From: Frankiales bacterium
GTDB taxonomy: Bacteria; Actinomycetota; Actinomycetes; Mycobacteriales; SCTD01
Length of the DNA stretch: 12,872 bases
Assembly (NCBI GenBank): GCA_025464695.1
Contig: JAODNQ010000165.1
Coordinates: 1 to 12,872, forward strand
Direction: 5' to 3'
Part shown: positions 2,080 to 9,951 of the stretch, piece by piece
Numbering within the stretch: the first letter of the stretch is position 1
Layout: each line of letters opens with the position of its first letter
The notes under the pieces: model-generated
The model's database searches: none
Seen by the model: only the letters and a program-made list of their open reading frames with translations
What the model was told of the DNA's origin: nothing
Program-made: the position numbers and the translations under genes

Positions 2080-2595
2080 ATGCAGCCTCTCGTGGTCAGC
2101 CTGGTCCTCGACCCCGTCGCACAGGAGCGCTTCGACGCCCTGCGCCGGCAGCACTTCCCCGCCGACCGGCTCGTGGTCGGCGCCCACGTCAGCCTGTTCC
2201 ACGCGCTGCCCGGGCAGGAGCAGGCCCGGGTCGAGGACGACCTGCGGCAGGCCGCGCGGCGCGCCCCGTTCGACGTCGCCGTTCCTCAGGTCCGGAGCCT
2301 GGGCCGCGGGGTCGCCTTCGCGCTGCAGGCCGAGGAGCTGTCGGTGCTCCACGCCGCCCTGCAGCAGCGCTGGCGCGACCTGCTCACGCCGCAGGACCGG
2401 CAGCGGCTGTCCGCGCACGTGACCGTGCAGAACAAGGTCGCGCCCGACGTCGCCCGCCGGCTCCACCGGTCGCTCCAGGAGGGCTTCGTGCCCTCCACCG
2501 TCCGGGCGGAGGGGCTGGCGCTGTGGCGGTACGCCGGCGGCCCCTGGGAGCCGGTCGGGACCTACCCCTTCGCGGCCGGGACCGGGGCGGAGTAG
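2080..2595 (+). CDS. 2H phosphoesterase (2'-5' RNA ligase / cyclic phosphodiesterase family)
   Basis: A 171-residue protein with the two HxS/T motifs that define the 2H superfamily: H36-V-S38-L after GAHVSL, and H113-V-T115-V after SAHVTVQNK. The N-terminal strand LVVSLVLDP and the spacing of about 77 residues between motifs fit the LigT/YjcG-like fold. Members act on 2',3'-cyclic or 2'-5' phosphodiester bonds in RNA or nucleotides; the natural substrate here is unknown. The ATG at 2080 follows GAGG immediately, too close for a normal ribosome site. Earlier in-frame starts would run antisense through the NUDIX gene and add no family sequence. The promoter must lie inside the 5' part of the NUDIX gene. 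The 3' end overlaps the convergent lysozyme gene by 34 bases (2562-2595). Confidence 0.87.
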   Translation: MQPLVVSLVLDPVAQERFDALRRQHFPADRLVVGAHVSLFHALPGQEQARVEDDLRQAARRAPFDVAVPQVRSLGRGVAFALQAEELSVLHAALQQRWRDLLTPQDRQRLSAHVTVQNKVAPDVARRLHRSLQEGFVPSTVRAEGLALWRYAGGPWEPVGTYPFAAGTGAE

Positions 2596-4418
2596 CCCAC
2601 GAGGTCGACGACGAGGCCGGCCGGGGCGCCGTGCAGGGTCAGGGTCACGCGGCCGAGAGCGTCGGTGCGGGTCATGACCAGACCGGTCTGCGACGCGCCG
2701 CGGCTGGTGGTGAGCGCCGTCGTCGTGGGCTCCTCGCCGGCCGGCCCGACCCGCAGGTAGCCGTCGCCGGTGGGGTCGACGGCGCTGACGTCGAGCAGCG
2801 CGGTCGCGCCGGCGGGGACCGGGGACGGCAGGGTCACCGTGACGCTGCGGCTGCCCTTGGCGCCGCCGAGGCCCTGGCGGGTGTCGACGACGCGGGCCGG
2901 GACGGTGCCGACGTGGCTGCTGCCGGTGGTGCTGTCCCCGGCGTAGTAGCCGAGCAGGTCGACGACGAGGTGCGCCGGCCCGCCGGACAGCGCGAGCGAG
3001 ACGGTGCGGCCGCCGGGGGCGAGCACCAGCCCGGTGCGGGACGTGCCGCCGTGCAGGTTGAGGACGGTCGCGCGCGACGCGCCCTGCACCACCTGGACGA
3101 AGCTGTCGTGCACCGCTCCGACCACCGACACGTTGAGGACGGCCGCGCGGGCGCCGGCGGGGACGGCGTCGGGCAGGGTCACGGTCACGCCGCCCGACGT
3201 CGCCGGGCTGCCCGCCCGACGGGTGTCGAGCACGCGGCTGGCGACGAGCGGGACGTAGTGGCCGCCGGTGCCGGGGGAGACGTCGTAGTACCCGACGAGG
3301 TCGGCGGCCAGGTGGGTCGCCCCGCCGGTGACGGTCAGGACGGCGCGGCGGGCGGCGTCGGTCCGGCTGACGACGAGGCCGGTGGTGCTCGCCCCGCGGA
3401 CGTAGGTGAGGGCGGTGGTGCGGGCGGGCTGGCCCGCGGCCGCGACCCGCAGGTAGCCGGCGCCGGTGGGGGAGACGGCGGAGACCGACAGCACCACGCC
3501 GGCGGCGTCGGCCGGCACCGTGGCGGGGAGCGTGAGGGTCAGCGCGCCGCGAGCGGGGCCGCGGGCCGCTCCGACGCCGGTGCGGGTGTCCAGCACCCGC
3601 TGGGCCGCGACGGGGACGTAGCGGCCGGGGGCGGTGTCGCTGGACACCTCGAGCGCGCCCGGGCTGGTGCCGGTGGGCGCGGTGTCGCTCGCCCCGACGA
3701 GGACGGGCGCCAGGGCGAGCCGGGCGAGGTCGGCGTCGGTGCCGGCGAACCGGTTCATGTCGACGTCCCCCTTGATGCCGGGGACGGTCGAGGTGGAGGA
3801 GTACTGCCAGAAGGTCCAGTCGTCCCAGCCGCTGGTCGTGGGGCGCGCGGCGCTCGTGTAGTGGGCGATCCAGAGCGGGTAGCCGGCGAAGGCCCGGGTC
3901 CCGCCCATGGAGGCCTTCCAGAACGACGGGTACGTGTAGACGACCGGCTGCCGGCCGGTGAGGCCCTCGAGGGTGGTCAGGAAGGTGCGCGTCCAGGACA
4001 CGAGCTGCGTCGCGGACAGGCCGGCGCTGGTCTCGAGGTCCAGGGCGGGCGGCAGCGTCCCGGGCAGCGACTGGTCGCCGATGCGGGCGGCGAAGGTGCG
4101 CGCCTGCGACGCCGCGCTGCCGGGCGACGTCGAGGGCCGGGCGAAGTGGTAGGCGCCGGTGTACAGGCCCGCGGCCCGCGCGCCGGTGCGGTCGCGGTCG
4201 TACCAGGCGTTCGTGACGTCGGTGCCCTCGGTGGCCTTGATGAAGGTGAAGTCCTGGCCGCCGGCGGCGAGGCGCTGCCAGTCGATCGGGCCGCCGTCGG
4301 GGTGCTGGTACCGGGAGACGTCGGGGCCGGTGGCCGCGAGGGAGGAGCCCGCCAGCGCGGGGGAGGCGATGGCGGCCGCGGCGAGCAGGACCGAGAGGGC
4401 GAGGCGGGGGAGTCGCAC
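2562..4418 (-). CDS. Secreted GH25 lysozyme (muramidase) with three RVLDTR-type C-terminal repeats
   Basis: A 618-residue exported protein. The GTG at 4418 is chosen because AGGAAG lies about nine bases upstream and a clean signal peptide follows (RLPRLALSVLLAAAAIASPALA, cut after residue 23). Earlier starts would lie in the riboswitch. The GH25 domain (31-226) has DVSRYQ (D33), FTFIKATEG, GAYHFARP, PPALDLE with the catalytic pair D127 and E129, YTYPSFW, PLWIAHYT and WTFWQYS...DVDMNRF. It should cleave the beta-1,4 bond between N-acetylmuramic acid and N-acetylglucosamine. An Ala/Thr/Pro linker leads to three beta-rich repeats of about 115-120 residues. Each opens with RV(L/V)DTR and closes with DL(V/L)GY. 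These repeats are widespread in actinobacterial surface proteins and are presumed to bind wall or carbohydrate. No LPXTG or membrane anchor is seen. Confidence 0.93.
   Translation of the reverse strand: MRLPRLALSVLLAAAAIASPALAGSSLAATGPDVSRYQHPDGGPIDWQRLAAGGQDFTFIKATEGTDVTNAWYDRDRTGARAAGLYTGAYHFARPSTSPGSAASQARTFAARIGDQSLPGTLPPALDLETSAGLSATQLVSWTRTFLTTLEGLTGRQPVVYTYPSFWKASMGGTRAFAGYPLWIAHYTSAARPTTSGWDDWTFWQYSSTSTVPGIKGDVDMNRFAGTDADLARLALAPVLVGASDTAPTGTSPGALEVSSDTAPGRYVPVAAQRVLDTRTGVGAARGPARGALTLTLPATVPADAAGVVLSVSAVSPTGAGYLRVAAAGQPARTTALTYVRGASTTGLVVSRTDAARRAVLTVTGGATHLAADLVGYYDVSPGTGGHYVPLVASRVLDTRRAGSPATSGGVTVTLPDAVPAGARAAVLNVSVVGAVHDSFVQVVQGASRATVLNLHGGTSRTGLVLAPGGRTVSLALSGGPAHLVVDLLGYYAGDSTTGSSHVGTVPARVVDTRQGLGGAKGSRSVTVTLPSPVPAGATALLDVSAVDPTGDGYLRVGPAGEEPTTTALTTSRGASQTGLVMTRTDALGRVTLTLHGAPAGLVVDLVGYSAPVPAAKG
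2565..3623 (-). repeat. Three tandem RVLDTR...VDLVGY protein repeats in the lysozyme gene
   Basis: Repeat 1 covers residues 266-385 (3264-3623), repeat 2 covers 386-499 (2922-3263) and repeat 3 covers 500-618 (2565-2921). Shared marks are RV(L/V)DTR near the start, TLP..VPA, a GYLRV strand, a TGLV strand and a final DL(V/L)GY(Y/S). Repeats 1 and 3 are the most alike (PTG-x-GYLRV, TTAL, TGLV-x-(S/T)RTDA). Repeat 2 has DSFVQVV in place of GYLRV and is the outlier. Divergence at DNA level indicates old duplication. Confidence 0.85.
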
Positions 4419-4431
4419 GAGGGGGGGCTTC

Positions 4432-4565
4432 CTGGCGGCACCTGCGAGCTGCTCCGCTGTCGGGTTCAAGGGCCAGGTGCCTTGGCCGGCGCCGCGAGGC
4501 GACCGGCTCCACCCCGAGGGCGCTGCGTGCAGCAACCCGGGTCTGCGGGAGTCCGTCCCTGCCGT
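4432..4565 (-). promoter_or_regulatory. c-di-AMP riboswitch (ydaO-yuaA type) upstream of the GH25 lysozyme
   Basis: Read on the - strand, the leader has the conserved elements of the ydaO-type aptamer in order. GACCCGGG comes first, then a GCTGC/GCAGC hairpin and CCCTCGGGGTGGAG. A CCGG...CCGG hairpin follows, then AAGG, and then the diagnostic 3' block GAACCCGACAGC followed by CGCAGGTG (about 4440-4467). CGGCA near 4564-4560 can pair with TGCCG at the 3' end to close P1. The stretch between ACAGC and CGCAGG is nine bases rather than the usual six, a local variant. The aptamer ends only a few bases before the AGGAAG ribosome site, leaving no space for a separate terminator hairpin. Ligand identity comes from family knowledge; boundaries are approximate. 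Confidence 0.75.
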
Positions 4566-4643
4566 TCCGTGCTCGACGTCCGCGTGGCCGGTGGCAGGGC
4601 TCGGCGCCCGTCCGCGCGCTGCCCGGGAGAGCGGGCGCTGCTC

Positions 4644-4649
4644 ACGCTA
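4644..4649 (-). promoter_or_regulatory. Possible -10 box for the GH25 lysozyme transcript
   Basis: TAGCGT on the - strand fits the actinobacterial TANNNT -10 pattern. It lies about 80 bases before the riboswitch, inside the 259-base gap after the DUF2203 stop. No good -35 was found. This is a weak assignment. Confidence 0.3.
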
Positions 4650-4677
4650 CGTACCGGGGCGGCTGCGCGCAGTCAGT

Positions 4678-5043
4678 TCACGGAAGTCGGCGTCGTCCCG
4701 CGATGCCGAGGTCGTGCCGGTGGTACCAGCGGAGGTCGTCGTCGCCCTCGAGCCAGCACAGCAGCACCGGCTCGCCGTCCAGCGACGAGGAGAAGTCGAG
4801 CAGCAGGGGCGCGAGGCCCTTCAGCTCCGCGCCGGTCTGCTGCACCGTGGTGAGGGCGTCGTCGAGCCGGGCCTGCAGGCCCTTCAGCTCCGCCAGACCC
4901 CCGAGCGGACTGCCGGTGCCGGTGCGGACCGCGGCGGACAGCTCGGCGGTGTCGGCACGCAGCCGGAGCACCTCGTCGAGCACCGGGCGCAGGTCGGCGA
5001 GGACCGCCCGGGCCTCCGCCAGCGTGAAGAGGGGGACGGTCAG
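4678..5043 (-). CDS. DUF2203 family protein, apparent CTG start
   Basis: About 121 residues, close to the usual DUF2203 length. The family pattern is clear: an N-terminal helix FTLAEARAVLADLRPVLDEV, a coiled middle with LKGLQARLDDALTTVQQTGAELKGL, then LLLDFSS...GEPVLLCWLEGDDDLRWYHRHDLGIAGRRRLP. Function is unknown. The start is a problem. No ATG, GTG or TTG lies between the stop of the upstream 55-codon gene and the conserved FTLAEAR segment. The first in-frame GTG falls inside the conserved helix. The best candidate is CTG at 5043, which overlaps the preceding TGA as CTGA, the same geometry as the GTGA overlaps elsewhere in the window. No Shine-Dalgarno sequence is visible, so translation may depend on coupling. 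It is probably the last gene of the operon. Confidence 0.8.
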   Translation of the reverse strand: MTVPLFTLAEARAVLADLRPVLDEVLRLRADTAELSAAVRTGTGSPLGGLAELKGLQARLDDALTTVQQTGAELKGLAPLLLDFSSSLDGEPVLLCWLEGDDDLRWYHRHDLGIAGRRRLP

Positions 5044-5207
5044 CGGGTCGCGTGGGCCCGGCAGACCAGCGTGCGCTGGCCGTCGACGGCGAGGACGGCC
5101 ACGGCGACGTCGTGGCAGCCGGCCTGCGAGCAGGTGGCGAGCTCGGTGCCCTTGGCGAGGTTGGCGAGGCTGGTGCGACGGGGGTTCGCGAGACGGGGCG
5201 AGGTCAT
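5040..5207 (-). CDS. 55-residue protein with a putative CxxxxC...CxxH zinc site
   Basis: A small gene with a strong ribosome site: GGGGAGG lies eight bases before the ATG at 5207. The protein has a basic N-terminus (MTSPRLANPRRTSLANLAKG), then C26-SQAG-C31, a hydrophobic strand DVAVAVLAVDGQRT, and LVC49-RA-H52. The spacing of three cysteines and a histidine suggests a single zinc knuckle or ribbon; this is inference from residue pattern only. I do not recognise a named family, though similar short actinobacterial proteins ending in C-x2-H are common. It lies 56 bases after the GlgC-like gene and its TGA overlaps the likely CTG start of DUF2203, so the two are probably translated together. Confidence 0.72.
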   Translation of the reverse strand: MTSPRLANPRRTSLANLAKGTELATCSQAGCHDVAVAVLAVDGQRTLVCRAHATR

Positions 5208-5263
5208 GGCCGCAGCCTCCCCGATCCGGGGCCCTCCTGGCGGTCCGGCGCCGGTGAGCCTTC

Positions 5264-6427
5264 TCACTCGGGCGGCGCGGGGCAGCGCGCACCGGCCGGG
5301 AGGTCGTCCGTCACGCGGGCGGCCAGGCCGACCAGGGTGACCGCGGACGGCCCCCCGACCCGGGCCCGGACGTCGGCCCGGTCGTCCAGCACGGCCCGCT
5401 CCACGACGGCTCCCGCCCGGACGACGGCGCCGGGCAGCAGGACGCTGTCGCGCACCACGGCCCCGGTCTCCACGACGACCCCCGCGCTCAGGACGCTCCG
5501 GACCACCTCGCCGGCCACCGTGCAGCCCGGCCCCAGCAGGCTGTCCTCGACGGTGGCGCCGCGCAGCAGCCGGGCGGGGTCGAAGCGGGTGGGGCGGGTC
5601 CGTACCGGCAGCCGGTCGTCGTGCAGTCGGAAGGCCGGGTCCTCGCCGAGCAGCTCCTGGTGGCCGCGCCAGTAGGAGTCCACGGTCCCGAGGTCGCGCC
5701 AGTAGCCGTCGATCGCGTGGGCGCGCATGCGGCCGGCGTCGGCCAGGCGGGGGAGCAGCTCGGTGCCGAGGTCCTGCAGCCCGTCCTCGCCGCAGTCCTG
5801 CGCCAGCTCCTCCAGCAGGTCGAGGACCTCGCCCGGGCTGCAGACGAACACCTCGGTGGCGACGACGTCGGACGCCGGCTCGTCGGGCTTGTAGGCGTAG
5901 GACACGACGCGCTCGCCGTCGACCTCGAACACGCCGAAGCGCGACGCCTCCTCCCCGGCCGGGACCGGTGCGGTGACGGCGGTGACGGCGGCGCCCGACT
6001 GCAGGTGCCCCTCGATCACCTCGTGCAGGTCGAGGCGGTAGCCGGCGTCGGCGCTCAGGACCACGAGGACGTCGGGGTCGGCGTCGCGGACCTGGGGGGC
6101 CTTGCGCCACAGCCCGTCGGCGGTGCCCTCGGTGAAGCCGGCCCGGTCGGTGCCCTGCGACGGCTGCAGCGCGAGCAGCCCCCCGGTGGTGCGGTCGAGG
6201 TCCCAGGGGCGGCCGTTGGCCAGGTGGGCGGCCAGCGACGTCGGGTGGTTCTGCTGCAGCACCCAGACGTCGTCGACCCCGGCGGCGGCGCACGCCGACA
6301 GCGGGACGTCGACCAGGCGGTGGGTGCCGGCGTAGGGGACGGCCGGCTTGGCGCGGTGCTCGGTCAGCAGCTCGAGGCGGCCGCCGGCACCACCGGCCAG
6401 GACGAGGGCGAGGGAGCGGGAGCGCAT
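5264..6427 (-). CDS. GlgC-like glucose-1-phosphate adenylyltransferase family protein
   Basis: A 387-residue nucleotidyltransferase with an N-terminal Rossmann-like domain and a C-terminal left-handed beta-helix (hexapeptide-like stretches from about residue 275). Matches to GlgC include LVLAGGAGGRLELLTEHRAKPAVPY (8-32), EGTADGLWRKA (100-110), VVLSADAGY (122-130) with the catalytic-type D127, FGVFEVDGERVVSYAYKP with K180 in the sugar-phosphate site, and GYWRDLGTVDSYW. True GlgC makes ADP-glucose from ATP and glucose-1-phosphate for glycogen or trehalose. Differences from classical GlgC are listed in the findings, so the sugar or nucleotide may differ. The ATG at 6427 has AGGGG upstream. The gene starts 37 bases after the exporter stop and could be co-transcribed with it. 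No glycogen genes are adjacent. Confidence 0.8.
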   Translation of the reverse strand: MRSRSLALVLAGGAGGRLELLTEHRAKPAVPYAGTHRLVDVPLSACAAAGVDDVWVLQQNHPTSLAAHLANGRPWDLDRTTGGLLALQPSQGTDRAGFTEGTADGLWRKAPQVRDADPDVLVVLSADAGYRLDLHEVIEGHLQSGAAVTAVTAPVPAGEEASRFGVFEVDGERVVSYAYKPDEPASDVVATEVFVCSPGEVLDLLEELAQDCGEDGLQDLGTELLPRLADAGRMRAHAIDGYWRDLGTVDSYWRGHQELLGEDPAFRLHDDRLPVRTRPTRFDPARLLRGATVEDSLLGPGCTVAGEVVRSVLSAGVVVETGAVVRDSVLLPGAVVRAGAVVERAVLDDRADVRARVGGPSAVTLVGLAARVTDDLPAGARCPAPPE

Positions 6428-6464
6428 GGAGCGCCCCTACCCCCTCGCCCCCGGTCGAGCAGGT

Positions 6465-8114
6465 CTAGACGACGGCGCTCTCCGCGCGGGCGGCCGACAG
6501 GCGCTCCTCGGTGTCGGCGTCCTGCTTGGCGGCGGCGAGGGCGCCGGTCGACCGCAGCGGGATCTCCTTGATGAACAGCGAGAGCACGAAGGCCGGCACC
6601 AGCAGGAACGCCACCGTGAGGAACGAGGTGTGCATCGAGTCGGCGAAGCCCTCGAGCACGACGCGCTTGACCTGGGGTGGAAGCGTGTTGAGGATCGAGG
6701 TGTCGTTCAGCGAGGAGGCCTCGCCGAACCGGTCGATGACGTCCTGGGGCAGCTTCGCCGCGACCGCGCGGTCCCGGATGTTGCCGCCGACGGAGCCGAA
6801 CAGCACCGACAGCGCCACGGCCGCGCCGAACGTCCCGCCCATGGAGCGGAAGAAGGTCACCGACGACGTCGCCACGCCCATGTCCTGCGGGGGCAGGGCG
6901 TTCTGCACGCTGATGACGAGCGTCTGCATGGACAGGCCCAGACCGGCACCCATGACGACCATGAAGGCGCTGGCGTGCCAGAGCGGCGTGTCGACCCCGA
7001 GCGTCGCGAACAGCAGCACCGCCACGAACATGACGGCGCAGCCGATCACCGGGAACACCTTGTACTTGCCGGTGCGGGACATGACCTTGCCGGTGATGCC
7101 GGACGAGATGATGATGCCGACCATCAGCGGGATGAGGAGCAGGCCCGCCTTGGTGGGCGTCTCGCCCTTCACGATCTGCAGGTAGAGCGGCAGCCCGACG
7201 AGCGCGCCGAACATCGCGGTCCCGACCAGCAGCGAGACGGCGCTGCTGACGTTGAACACCCGGTTCCGGAAGATGCGGAGCGGCAGGATGGCGGCCTCGC
7301 CCATGTGCCCCTCCCAGGGCACGAACGCGACGAGCGAGACGACGCCGACGGCGAGCATCCCGAGCGACAGCCCCGAGCTCCAGCCCCACTCGCGGCCCTT
7401 CTCGGCCAGCAGCAGGACCGGCACGATGGCGGCGGTCAGCAGCGCGGCGCCGACGTAGTCGATGGCGTGCGGCGAGCGGCGGGTCGGCAGGTGCAGCTTC
7501 TTGACGACGACCACGAACGCGGCCAGACCGATCGGGACGTTCACGTAGAAGATCCAGCGCCAGCCGTCGAACCCGAGCAGGCGGTCCTGGCCGGCGAGGA
7601 AGCCACCGAGCACCGGCCCCAGCACGCTGGAGGTGCCGAACACGCTCATGAAGTAGGCCTGGTACCGACCGCGCTCCCGCGGCGGGACGATGTCGCCGAC
7701 GATCGCGAAGGCCAGCGACATGAGGCCACCGGCGCCGAGGCCCTGGATCGCCCGGTAGCCGGCGAGCTGGTAGATCCCGGTGGCCGTGCCGCAGAGCAGC
7801 GAGCCGACCAGGAAGATGATGATCGCGGCGAGGTAGAACTTCTTGCGCCCGTAGGAGTCGGACAGCTTCCCGTAGAGCGGCGTCGAGATCGTCGAGGTGA
7901 TCAGGTACGCCGTCGTCACCCAGGCCTGCGCGGTCTGGCCGTCGAGCTTGTCGGCGATGGTCCGCATGGCCGTGGAGACGATGGTCTGGTCCAGCGCGGC
8001 GAGGAACATGCCGAGCAGCAGGCCCGACAGGATCACGAGGATCTGGCGGTGCGTCAGCGGCCCCGAGGCGGCATCGGCCGAGGCTGCGGGCGGTCGGTCG
8101 GCGGTCGTGGTCAC
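6465..8114 (-). CDS. DHA2-family (14-TM) MFS drug exporter, EmrB/QacA type
   Basis: A 549-residue integral membrane antiporter. Diagnostic motifs are LDQTIVSTAMRTI in TM1 (motif D1), GKLSDSYGRKKF in the loop between TM2 and TM3 (motif A), QGLGAGGLMSLAFAIVGDIVPPRERGRYQ (motif B region) and GTSSVLGPVLGGFL (motif C, typical of exporters). The following WRWIFYVNVPIGL is typical of DHA2 members. Length and segment count fit 14 helices, with a large outer loop near residues 440-495. It should export toxic compounds using the proton gradient; substrates cannot be named. The GTG start at 8114 overlaps the MarR stop as GTGA, and a perfect AAGGAGG lies four bases upstream inside the MarR gene. Control by the adjacent MarR protein is therefore very likely. 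Confidence 0.92.
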   Translation of the reverse strand: MTTTADRPPAASADAASGPLTHRQILVILSGLLLGMFLAALDQTIVSTAMRTIADKLDGQTAQAWVTTAYLITSTISTPLYGKLSDSYGRKKFYLAAIIIFLVGSLLCGTATGIYQLAGYRAIQGLGAGGLMSLAFAIVGDIVPPRERGRYQAYFMSVFGTSSVLGPVLGGFLAGQDRLLGFDGWRWIFYVNVPIGLAAFVVVVKKLHLPTRRSPHAIDYVGAALLTAAIVPVLLLAEKGREWGWSSGLSLGMLAVGVVSLVAFVPWEGHMGEAAILPLRIFRNRVFNVSSAVSLLVGTAMFGALVGLPLYLQIVKGETPTKAGLLLIPLMVGIIISSGITGKVMSRTGKYKVFPVIGCAVMFVAVLLFATLGVDTPLWHASAFMVVMGAGLGLSMQTLVISVQNALPPQDMGVATSSVTFFRSMGGTFGAAVALSVLFGSVGGNIRDRAVAAKLPQDVIDRFGEASSLNDTSILNTLPPQVKRVVLEGFADSMHTSFLTVAFLLVPAFVLSLFIKEIPLRSTGALAAAKQDADTEERLSAARAESAVV

Positions 8115-8611
8115 GAGGCCTCCTTCTGGTCGTGAGCGATCAGCGCGGGGGCCGACTGCAGGGACGGGGTCGCGGCGGAGCGGGCGGCGGACAGGTCGGT
8201 GTTGAACCGGGACAGGGACGAGGCGAGGGCGCCGAGCTCGTCCTCGCTCCAGTCGGGCAGCGCCTCGGTGAGCAGGGCGGCGTGTGCACGGCGTCGGTCG
8301 GCCAGGGCCTCGCGCCCGGCCGGGGTGAGCCGGAGCAGGTGGGCGCGGCGGTCACCCGGGTCTGCCTCGCGGTCGACCCAGCCCTCGCGCTCGAGCGCGG
8401 GGACCTGACGGCTCACGGTCGAGACGTCGAGGCAGAGCCGGTCGGCCAGCTCGGACAGCCGCAGCGGCCCGAAGTCGCCGACGTGGGCGAGGACGGCGGC
8501 CGCGGACTGGTCCAGCCGGCGGCCCGAGGTGGGCGGCAGCGTGGTGCTGAGCTCGCGCAGGCCGCGCACGAGCAGCACGATCTCGCGGGCGAGGGCCTCG
8601 GTGGCGGACAC
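8111..8611 (-). CDS. MarR-family transcriptional regulator
   Basis: A 166-residue winged-helix regulator. The recognition segment is LRLSELADRLCLDVSTVSRQVPALEREGWVDR (about 51-82), followed by the wing EADPGDRRAHLLRLTPAGREAL with the classical D-x-R-R signature. Flanking helices (residues 1-40 and 100-166) would form the dimer interface. A cysteine sits in the helix just before the recognition helix; whether it senses oxidation is speculation. The GTG at 8611 is preceded by CTGGAG with five bases of spacing. The gene is first in the MarR-exporter unit, and a 6-3-6 dyad lies 22 bases upstream of the start. MarR proteins usually repress their own operon until a phenolic or other ligand binds. 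Confidence 0.9.
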   Translation of the reverse strand: MSATEALAREIVLLVRGLRELSTTLPPTSGRRLDQSAAAVLAHVGDFGPLRLSELADRLCLDVSTVSRQVPALEREGWVDREADPGDRRAHLLRLTPAGREALADRRRAHAALLTEALPDWSEDELGALASSLSRFNTDLSAARSAATPSLQSAPALIAHDQKEAS

Positions 8612-8632
8612 GGGTGCTCCAGGGGCAGTGGT

Positions 8633-8647
8633 TGCTTGCTACAAGCA
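8633..8647. promoter_or_regulatory. Candidate MarR operator, TGCTTG-CTA-CAAGCA
   Basis: A perfect 6-3-6 inverted repeat lies 22 bases before the MarR start codon. Its size and symmetry fit a MarR dimer site (family sites are usually 15-20 bp dyads). The position allows it to overlap the promoter or early transcript and so to repress marR and the exporter. The assignment rests on symmetry and location. Confidence 0.65.
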
Positions 8648-8694
8648 TCGACCAGGGGCACTCCTTCCGCAGTCCCGGGACCCCGAGACCTGTC

Positions 8695-8710
8695 TGTGAC
8701 CTGTCTCACG
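8695..8710. promoter_or_regulatory. CRP/GlxR-like binding site, TGTGA-N6-TCACG
   Basis: The site matches the CRP-family consensus TGTGA-N6-TCACA at nine of ten fixed positions. It lies about 310 bases upstream of the NlpC/P60 start and about 85 bases upstream of the MarR start, in the divergent region. CRP-family regulators control resuscitation and wall-hydrolase genes in mycobacteria and corynebacteria, so the NlpC/P60 gene is the more likely target. A CATCGT-like -10 was not found, but CATGCT at 8754-8759 would put the site near -63. Confidence 0.6.
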
Positions 8711-8722
8711 CATGGACCGGAC

Positions 8723-8777
8723 GGGTCGTGGGGACGCGCGCCCGCCGGGATGCCATGCTGTCCCCACAGCACGACCC
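8723..8777. repeat. Long interrupted dyad in the NlpC/P60 promoter region
   Basis: GGGTCGTG (8723-8730) is the exact complement of CACGACCC (8770-8777), and GGGAC (8731-8735) pairs with GTCCC (8760-8764). Together they give 13 base pairs with a five-base bulge on one side and a 24-base loop. It could be a hairpin at the 5' end of the leader transcript, or a protein site. Confidence 0.55.
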
Positions 8778-8837
8778 TCCAACGCCAGACCGGAACGCCG
8801 AGTCCCGCCCCCGGTCAGCACGGCGTCCGAACGAGCT

Positions 8838-9005
8838 CCTGGGCGGGAGCGGGGGACCCAGGTTCCTCGGGCACTCGGCCGCACGTCCCTGAGACGGGGA
8901 CGGCAGCCGCGTGCCCTCGGGGCGAAGCGCACCCCTGCATCACGAGGGGAGCGCCGGGCAGACCACTCCGCCCGAGCCCGACAGCTCACTCCGCAGGCGT
9001 GCGAG
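8838..9005 (+). promoter_or_regulatory. c-di-AMP riboswitch (ydaO-yuaA type) upstream of the NlpC/P60 gene
   Basis: The + strand leader carries the ydaO aptamer elements in order. GGGGGACCCAGG is at 8851-8862. A stem GGGCAC/GTGCCC (8869-8874/8911-8916) encloses a CGTCCC/GGGACG hairpin. CCTCGGGGCGAAGC follows (about 8915-8928), then an ACCCCT...AGGGG hairpin, and the diagnostic 3' block GAGCCCGACAGCTCAC followed by CGCAGGCG (8974-8999). The 3' block is nearly identical to the actinobacterial consensus. The GAGAGG ribosome site begins about four bases after the aptamer and the start codon follows ten bases later. Ligand and mode are from family knowledge; exact ends, especially the 5' end of P1, are approximate. 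Confidence 0.85.
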
Positions 9006-9018
9006 AGGTCACCCACCC

Positions 9019-9951
9019 TTGTTCGCCCTGCCCTGCTCGTACGTCCCCAGGCACGCCGCTCCCCGCGAGCCGCTCGCCCCCTCCACCCGCTCGGCGCTCG
9101 CCGTCGGCCTCGCCGCCGCGGTCCTGCCGCTCGGTGCCACGACGGCCTTCGCCGAGAGCACCCCGGCGACGACGACGGTCGCGGACTCCAGCAGCGCGAC
9201 GGCCACGACCGGGACCGCTCCCGAGGCCCGGGCGCCCTACGACGCCGGCACCCCGGCCGCGGCGCCCGCTGCTGCTGCCTCCGCCCCTGCTGCTGCGCAG
9301 CCGAAGGCCAAGACCCGCGCCGAGACCGACCTGGCGTTCCGGGCTCCCGCGTCCGCGCGCAGCGCCAAGGTGCCGGTCGGCATCCGCCTGACCTCCGGCG
9401 GACGGGCCGTGCGCAACGGCTACGTCCGGCTCGAGAAGTCCACGCCCGACGGCTGGACCTACGTCGGCCGCCTGCTCACCAACGGCGACGGAGTCGGCAC
9501 GGGCACCCTGCGGGTCGCGGGCAGCGCCAAGCTCCGCGCCGCCTACACCGGCAGCCAGGTCCGCACCCCGGCCGTCAGCGCGGCCCGGGTCGTCCGCACC
9601 GCCGCCGTCGACGGCTCGGCCGTCCTCGAGGAGGCCGCCAAGCACGTCGGCGCGCCGTACGTGTACGGCGCCGTCGGCCCGGACGCCTTCGACTGCTCGG
9701 GGTACACCCGCTACGTCTACGGGCGGCTCGGCAAGAGCCTGCCGCACAACGCGCGCGCCCAGGAGCAGGCCACCACCCGCGTGAGCAAGGCCGACGCGCA
9801 GCCCGGCGACCTCGTGTTCATGCAGGACGTCAACGGCCACGTCGGCATCTACGCGGGGAACGGCCAGATGTACGACGCGCCCCGCAGCGGCAAGACCGTC
9901 AGCCGCCGGGCCATCTGGTCGCAGAACTACACCGTCGGCCGCGTCCTGTAG
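9019..9951 (+). CDS. Secreted NlpC/P60 peptidoglycan endopeptidase
   Basis: A 310-residue exported enzyme. The TTG at 9019 is chosen because GAGAGG lies ten bases upstream and all earlier in-frame starts fall in the riboswitch; no ATG exists in this stretch. The signal peptide (about 1-45) has a basic region PRHAAPREP and core ALAVGLAAAVLPLGATTAFA. An Ala/Pro/Thr-rich linker follows, then an Ig-like beta domain (about 95-190: VPVGIRLTSGG...GYVRLEKS...LRAAYTGS). The NlpC/P60 domain spans about 200-310. AFDCSGY holds nucleophile C226, GHVGIY holds H274, and MYDAPRSG has D286 where E. coli Spr has its third catalytic histidine. It should cut the stem peptide of peptidoglycan, probably the D-Glu to diaminopimelate bond. 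Upstream control signals suggest regulation by c-di-AMP and perhaps cAMP. Confidence 0.92.
   Translation: MFALPCSYVPRHAAPREPLAPSTRSALAVGLAAAVLPLGATTAFAESTPATTTVADSSSATATTGTAPEARAPYDAGTPAAAPAAAASAPAAAQPKAKTRAETDLAFRAPASARSAKVPVGIRLTSGGRAVRNGYVRLEKSTPDGWTYVGRLLTNGDGVGTGTLRVAGSAKLRAAYTGSQVRTPAVSAARVVRTAAVDGSAVLEEAAKHVGAPYVYGAVGPDAFDCSGYTRYVYGRLGKSLPHNARAQEQATTRVSKADAQPGDLVFMQDVNGHVGIYAGNGQMYDAPRSGKTVSRRAIWSQNYTVGRVL

Follow-up and report, generated by a model that had tools for sequence, protein, structure and literature searches.

The closest described relatives of the system treated here are leaders of the ydaO/yuaA riboswitch family (Rfam RF00379), with which it has in common a P1–P7 layout, GGGGyGAAG and GAaCCCGACAGC cores and cell-wall hydrolase genes as targets. 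In the accessible parts of the papers cited, the nlpC leader of Corynebacterium glutamicum is an experimentally tested OFF switch that acts on translation in response to cyclic di-AMP (c-di-AMP) (PMC9960051), and in Streptomyces a single genome has six or seven hydrolases, differing in the bonds that they cut, behind one type of leader, with GH25 enzymes not named among the targets in those parts (PMC10117811, PMC11481543, PMC8079986); a regulon of glycan and peptide cutters under one signal is already known there (PMC8079986, PMC10117811). We analysed a stretch of 12 872 nucleotides from a Frankiales bacterium (contig JAODNQ010000165.1; hereafter the window), in which a GH25 muramidase gene on the minus strand and a secreted NlpC/P60 peptidase gene on the plus strand are divergently transcribed, their leaders lying about 4.2 kb apart with five minus-strand genes in between. 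As in C. glutamicum, an NlpC/P60 gene is preceded by a leader that lacks a terminator and has a proposed pseudoknot that would block the Shine–Dalgarno (SD) sequence; unlike that system, two leaders here lie close together and are known from sequence alone. Both leaders are probably c-di-AMP riboswitches that shut off translation at high signal, the GH25 one in a divergent form, within a genome-wide hydrolase regulon and with their closeness being incidental. Our literature search, with the main crystal and discovery papers lying outside it, found neither a GH25 gene under a ydaO riboswitch nor the additional helix, P0, described below.

Homology and proposed action of the two leaders

The earlier note had placed a ydaO-type aptamer before each hydrolase gene and proposed the Rfam model as a check. 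Both leaders fell below the gathering score of RF00379 (38 bits), yet both were matched in permissive mode, the NlpC leader at 8867–9012 (+) with 25.4 bits (E 0.00055 in a short stretch, 0.018 in the whole window) and the GH25 leader at 4456–4522 (−) with 16.7 bits (E 0.12 and 4.7, respectively). Owing to the long P2 loop, the model misplaces the 5′ half of the NlpC leader by about 80 bases in the downstream direction; P1 starts at 8795. RF00379 gave six matches at E ≤ 10 in G001, the closest genome (2.9 Mb): the top three stand above the cut-off, and the fifth and sixth, with 22.2 and 14.9 bits, are the leaders syntenic with ours. These low scores, for leaders that a model of the lineage detects, led us to drop the gathering score as the only test. 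A match over the cut-off was present in 54 of 61 related genomes.

The lineage model, a covariance model called R1, was trained on 34 canonical leaders taken from related genomes (alignment A6), the window, its counterpart in G001 (locus L001) and all GH25 leaders being left out of the training set. It matched the NlpC leader over its full length (8841–9021, 98.1 bits, E 8e-20 in 119 kb searched) and the GH25 leader at 4456–4536 (−) over model positions 30–109 of 145 only (34.7 bits, E 7e-6 in the same 119 kb). The two leaders of L001 scored 82.1 and 32.8 bits, and the GH25 leaders of genomes G009 and G015, at full length, 52.6 and 52.2 bits; the whole-genome E values were 7e-15 and 4e-4 (G001), 3e-8 (G009) and 2e-8 (G015). 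Both leaders are therefore homologues of the ydaO riboswitch, the GH25 one divergent.

L001, from the metagenome-assembled genome Frankiales bacterium RYN_184, is the nearest relative, with about 80% DNA identity over most of the window, tblastn matches to 11 of the 14 window proteins (all five genes between the leaders included), the same gene order and both leaders; the identity of its NlpC gene rests on the first codons and the leader, because the contig ends inside that gene. On the strength of this synteny, the R1 homology and a common anatomy, the assignment of ydaO-type leaders to the muramidase and the peptidase was upheld. The NlpC leader is complete (about 8782–9010) and an ordinary member for its lineage, having P1–P3 with a P3 of the GCGGGG/CyCCGC type, the GGGGACCC core and a minimum free energy (MFE) well below that of dinucleotide shuffles (z −2.74).

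According to the mechanism that we propose, the mRNA would start near the P0 strand and the aptamer, P1–P7, would then fold; in the c-di-AMP-bound state, the P7 loop would be held in pairing with the SD-containing tail that directly follows P1, which would block the SD and prevent synthesis of the hydrolase. The complementarity of P7 loop and SD, like the homology, the gene context and the helices, can be read directly from the letters; we infer c-di-AMP as the ligand, as well as the direction of control and its translational level. Over 46 leaders, the pairing of P7 loop with SD tail averaged −16.5 kcal/mol, compared with −14.9 kcal/mol for permuted partners (0/5000 as low), and a loop–tail pseudoknot is also present in the ydaO aptamer of Thermoanaerobacter tengcongensis, in our reading of the sequence printed in PMC5393176. 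Start codons lie closely downstream of most leaders and a terminator scan of both window leaders saw none, which, together with the loop–SD pairing, fits a translational OFF switch as in C. glutamicum nlpC. A sigma-70 scan of the two leaders gave no two-hexamer promoter, and the −10-like elements of canonical leaders are scattered, with none within 35–75 nt in nine of 40. A diadenylate cyclase domain was found in five of six related genomes.

Several observations weigh against this reading. RF00379 at its gathering score has zero matches in the whole window. The GGGGACCC core, found in that or a close form in every one of the 36 aligned canonical leaders, is missing from the GH25 leader; GAAG, invariant in 36/36 canonical leaders, is GGAG in three of the four GH25 leaders, including that of the window; and inspection of the alignment by hand places an A–C mismatch in P3 of three of the four. 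The MFE of the GH25 leader is no better than that of dinucleotide shuffles (z 0.21), and folding was set aside as of no use as evidence for it. The longest contiguous loop–tail run is a weaker signal than the pairing energy (6.11 native vs 5.67 permuted, 12/5000 reaching the native value), and in the NlpC leader of the window this longest run differs from the SD pairing. No diadenylate cyclase match was found in G015. Lastly, premature termination is reported for rpfA of Streptomyces coelicolor, unlike what we propose here (accessible part of PMC10117811), and the level of control may therefore differ.

The GH25 leader as a divergent variant

Among 30 GH25-like loci (L072–L101), the CCCGACAGC core lies at most 420 bases upstream of the protein match only in the three most similar, whose proteins are 75, 56 and 56% identical to that of the window; a strict variant pattern occurs in 3/298 genomes, in one copy each, directly before those same orthologues. 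The GH25 leader (about 4431–4619, −) is a divergent variant, so far found only before orthologues of this muramidase, and its altered core seems to be a new detail. In the four aligned GH25 leaders, unlike RF00379, CGGACYnCYGCA stands for the canonical GCGGGGGACCCA and an insertion of three bases follows CAGC. In the CGGACYnCYGCA region, RNAalifold pairs CYGC with GCRG, with one two-sided change and another pair that is U–A or C–G, and further two-sided changes occur in pairs of P1 and of P3/P4 (the P4 hairpin). P1 and P2 are present and P3 is altered; P6 and P7 are evident by eye, the four-sequence alignment misplacing both. In the four leaders, the P1 core is preceded by a TAnnnT element at distances of 44, 45, 44 and 44 nt. 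The motifs quoted by the earlier note as shared by the two window leaders are indeed present in the sequence, yet one of them, GACCC(A/G)GG, is missing from all three GH25 orthologues; its presence in the window's GH25 leader therefore looks coincidental, and we dropped it as a shared element.

The RNA-Puzzles account of the T. tengcongensis aptamer describes a mostly unresolved bubble between helices (PMC5393176, in its accessible part), and it would be this region that is rebuilt in the GH25 leader. Tentatively, and as something unlikely rather than expected, the GH25 leader may belong to a variant class of its own within the ydaO fold, having a rebuilt P3 region and a changed second GAA element, and either an altered affinity for c-di-AMP or a different nucleotide as ligand.

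It is improbable that the leader is instead a riboswitch in decay, which has lost c-di-AMP binding and is retained only as an ordinary 5′ untranslated region. The changed core, the P3 mismatch and the want of any folding excess would be expected of such a relic, and decay seems to occur in the lineage, the middle domain having been lost at G006:C24 and G001:C400; but the altered core is common to four sequences from three or four species, P1, P2, P4, P6, P7 and the loop–SD complementarity are kept with compensating changes, and the TAnnnT element stands at 44–45 nt in all four.

Nearness of the two genes

The earlier note had seen in the two enzymes a coordinated glycan-plus-peptide cutting pair, a dedicated device of the locus by which one signal would release both cutters together. 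The retention of both leaders and of the intervening genes in L001 speaks for this, but two species of one lineage may share gene order by descent, and in the related genomes examined the GH25–NlpC pair was not found beyond the window and G001. In G009, the whole GH25 contig (C11, 25 390 bases in two pieces) gave zero matches to the 13 other window proteins searched; G015 is uninformative on pairing because its GH25 contig measures only 4.9 kb. A MarR gene, the leader and NlpC recur as neighbours in G009, G012 and G015, as does a PAC2 gene beside NlpC in G007, in each case with no GH25 nearby.

R1-type leaders number one to eight per genome in the 20 related genomes searched, and 10 selected downstream proteins comprised six NlpC/P60 peptidases and four Rpf-like transglycosylases. 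Rpf and NlpC genes at other places in these genomes have leaders of this kind too, so that the signal reaches cutters of glycan and of peptide across the whole genome. When six to eight leaders were placed at random, two fell within 4.5 kb of each other in 4.4–8.5% of simulations, and a tighter arrangement than that of the window exists at L107 (G014:C59), where two divergent leader–NlpC genes lie about 1.5 kb apart (leaders at 4202–4341 (−) and 5886–6023 (+)). GH25 genes beside leader–NlpC genes at G009:C19 and G014:C220 were considered as extra pairs and rejected, since R1 detects no leader in front of the GH25 genes concerned and other coding-like sequence intervenes. With G009 unpaired, a genome-wide regulon already known and such proximity arising by chance at the rate given, the case for a coordinated pair is weak and a locus-level device is quite improbable; the nearness of the two genes, though common to the window and G001, is most likely incidental.

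A GH25 leader turned to another cyclic dinucleotide or a related nucleotide is very improbable: the substituted GAAG residue and the rebuilt bubble region would suit it, and variants running from c-di-GMP-I to c-AMP-GMP, and those of ykkC, offer precedents (accessible part of PMC7266159), but L074, a GH25 orthologue leader, retains GAAG and the target remains a wall hydrolase.

Helix P0, neighbouring genes and implications

The strand just upstream of P1 is complementary to the first part of the P2 loop, and the resulting helix, P0, which RF00379 does not have, crosses P2. The P0 pairing averaged −23.7 kcal/mol over 43 leaders, compared with −17.6 kcal/mol for permuted partners (0/5000 as low). 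Of 40 leaders, 38 had a contiguous P0 of at least 5 bp (27 distinct 5′ arms), compared with 31.5% of swapped pairs and 14.5% of other stretches in the same leaders; these controls take no account of how closely the leaders are related to one another. The two that deviate are the window's GH25 leader and its counterpart in G001, where 3 bp and a mismatch precede the rest; L140, L162, L173 and L174 (no P2 found) and L164 and L172 (P3 pattern unmatched) were left out of this count. P2 itself is standard-paired in 36/36 canonical leaders, with changes on both sides. Column-wise counting on alignment A5 gave only 25–31 of 36 standard pairs per P0 column, owing to the register shift between leaders with P2 arms of 8 and of 9 bp, and was replaced by pairing within each leader. 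In other actinobacterial families, represented by 30 diverse leaders (L042–L071) of which 20 were analysable and 10 were dropped by the search patterns, a contiguous P0 of at least 6 bp occurred in two of the 20 (L065 and L069), so that P0 looks lineage-limited. It seems to be a new detail of a known switch type, and may be either a true pseudoknot, stacking on P2, or a hairpin that forms early and is then displaced.

Three other leaders of related genomes depart from the usual form. L206 (G006:C24:82819–82878, +) and L207 (G001:C400:5193–5286, +) keep P0, P1, P2 and part of P3 and lack the middle domain, having neither GGGGTGAAG nor CCCGACAGC; half-aptamers, decayed copies and assembly errors are the candidates. 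L205 (G024:C117:4706–4861, −; R1 50.5 bits) is divergent, with CAGGACCC after the core for CAGCTCAC and GTGAGGCC for GTGAAGCC. A GTCATCGAATCGTCATG-like repeat, perhaps a regulator site, stands before several NlpC leaders (e.g. L151, L158, L159 and L161).

The features of the window are collected in Table 1, in which the start codons GTG 4418 and TTG 9019 are our reading, the domain scan having used longer frames. The best solved relative of the GH25 protein is the muramidase 1jfx (E 3e-36), and the NlpC/P60 protein matches solved NlpC/P60 relatives, best 6b8c (E 6e-20). The C-terminal repeat of the GH25 protein (RVLDTR..., 2562–3700, −) is also found in numerous other large proteins encoded by related genomes. 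The MarR regulator and the DHA2-type MFS efflux transporter (TIGR00711, 263 bits vs cut-off 230) are likely to form an operon (6465–8611, −), divergent from the NlpC leader, which a MarR gene adjoins in G009, G012 and G015 as well.

Table 1. Genes and leader elements of the window, in window positions
Feature	Position	Strand	Remark
GH25 muramidase gene	2562..4418	-	PF01183 E 5e-46, 157.7 bits vs cut-off 27
GH25 protein	2562..4418	-	Signal peptide, GH25 domain, three-fold repeated C-terminal region
GH25 gene start, GTG	4418	-	Start position common to L072-L074
GH25 SD, AGGAAG	4428-4433	-	
GH25 leader core	4431..4563	-	R1 34.7 bits; alignment with three orthologues
GH25 P1 3′ arm	4437-4442	-	
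GH25 P3 3′ strand	within 4443-4457	-	
GH25 GAACCCGACAGC	4456-4467	-	
GH25 P7 (AAGG..CCTT)	4468-4483	-	Core order after P3 strand: P4 hairpin, GGGGTGGAGCC, P6, P7
GH25 P7 loop, CCTGGC	4472-4477	-	Complementary to GCCAGG 4431-4436, SD-overlapping
GH25 altered P3 strand, CGGACTCCCGCA	4544-4555	-	
GH25 P2 3′ arm	4557-4563	-	
GH25 leader 5′ part	4580..4619	-	P0, P1, P2 strands
GH25 P0 strands	about 4609-4619 with 4580-4591	-	Broken by mismatches
GH25 P2 5′ arm	4593-4599	-	
GH25 P1 5′ arm	4603-4608	-	
Candidate -10 of GH25 transcript, TAnnnT	4644..4649	-	TAGCGT
DUF2203, small open reading frame, sugar nucleotidyltransferase, DHA2-type MFS transporter, MarR regulator	4678..8611	-	Order as in L001
Possible -10-like element of NlpC transcript, CATGCT	8754..8759	+	43 nt before P1 core; weak
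NlpC leader 5′ part	8782..8826	+	P0, P1 5′ arm, GAG, P2 5′ arm
NlpC P0	8782-8786 + 8788-8793 with 8811-8816 + 8822-8826	+	
NlpC P1 5′ arm	8795-8799	+	Followed by GAG
NlpC P2 5′ arm	8803-8810	+	
NlpC leader core	8841..9010	+	R1 98.1 bits full length, RF00379 25.4 bits
NlpC P2 3′ arm	8841-8848	+	
NlpC P3	8849-8854 with 8989-8994	+	Core order after P3: GACCC, P4 hairpin, GGGGCGAAGC, P6, P7, GAGCCCGACAGC, P1 3′ arm
NlpC P7	8956-8959 with 8970-8973	+	
NlpC P7 loop, GACCACTC	8961-8968	+	Complementary to GAGAGGTC 9003-9010, one mismatch
NlpC P1 3′ arm	8996-9000	+	
NlpC SD, GAGAGG	9003-9008	+	Inside GAGAGGTC
NlpC/P60 peptidase gene	9019..9951	+	Secreted; start TTG; PF00877 E 1e-23, 83.4 bits vs cut-off 23

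A leader with an altered core and a normal one in a single locus lend themselves to a natural comparison of what is and is not essential in the ydaO pocket; if the GH25 leader does represent a variant class, the muramidase would answer at another level of the signal, or to another signal, than the neighbouring peptidase. P0, if real, would be a second pseudoknot, linking the extreme 5′ end of the mRNA with the P2 loop, and a possible folding gate. RF00379 overlooks at least these lineage-specific c-di-AMP leaders, and the reach of c-di-AMP in actinobacteria is therefore probably undercounted, muramidases included.

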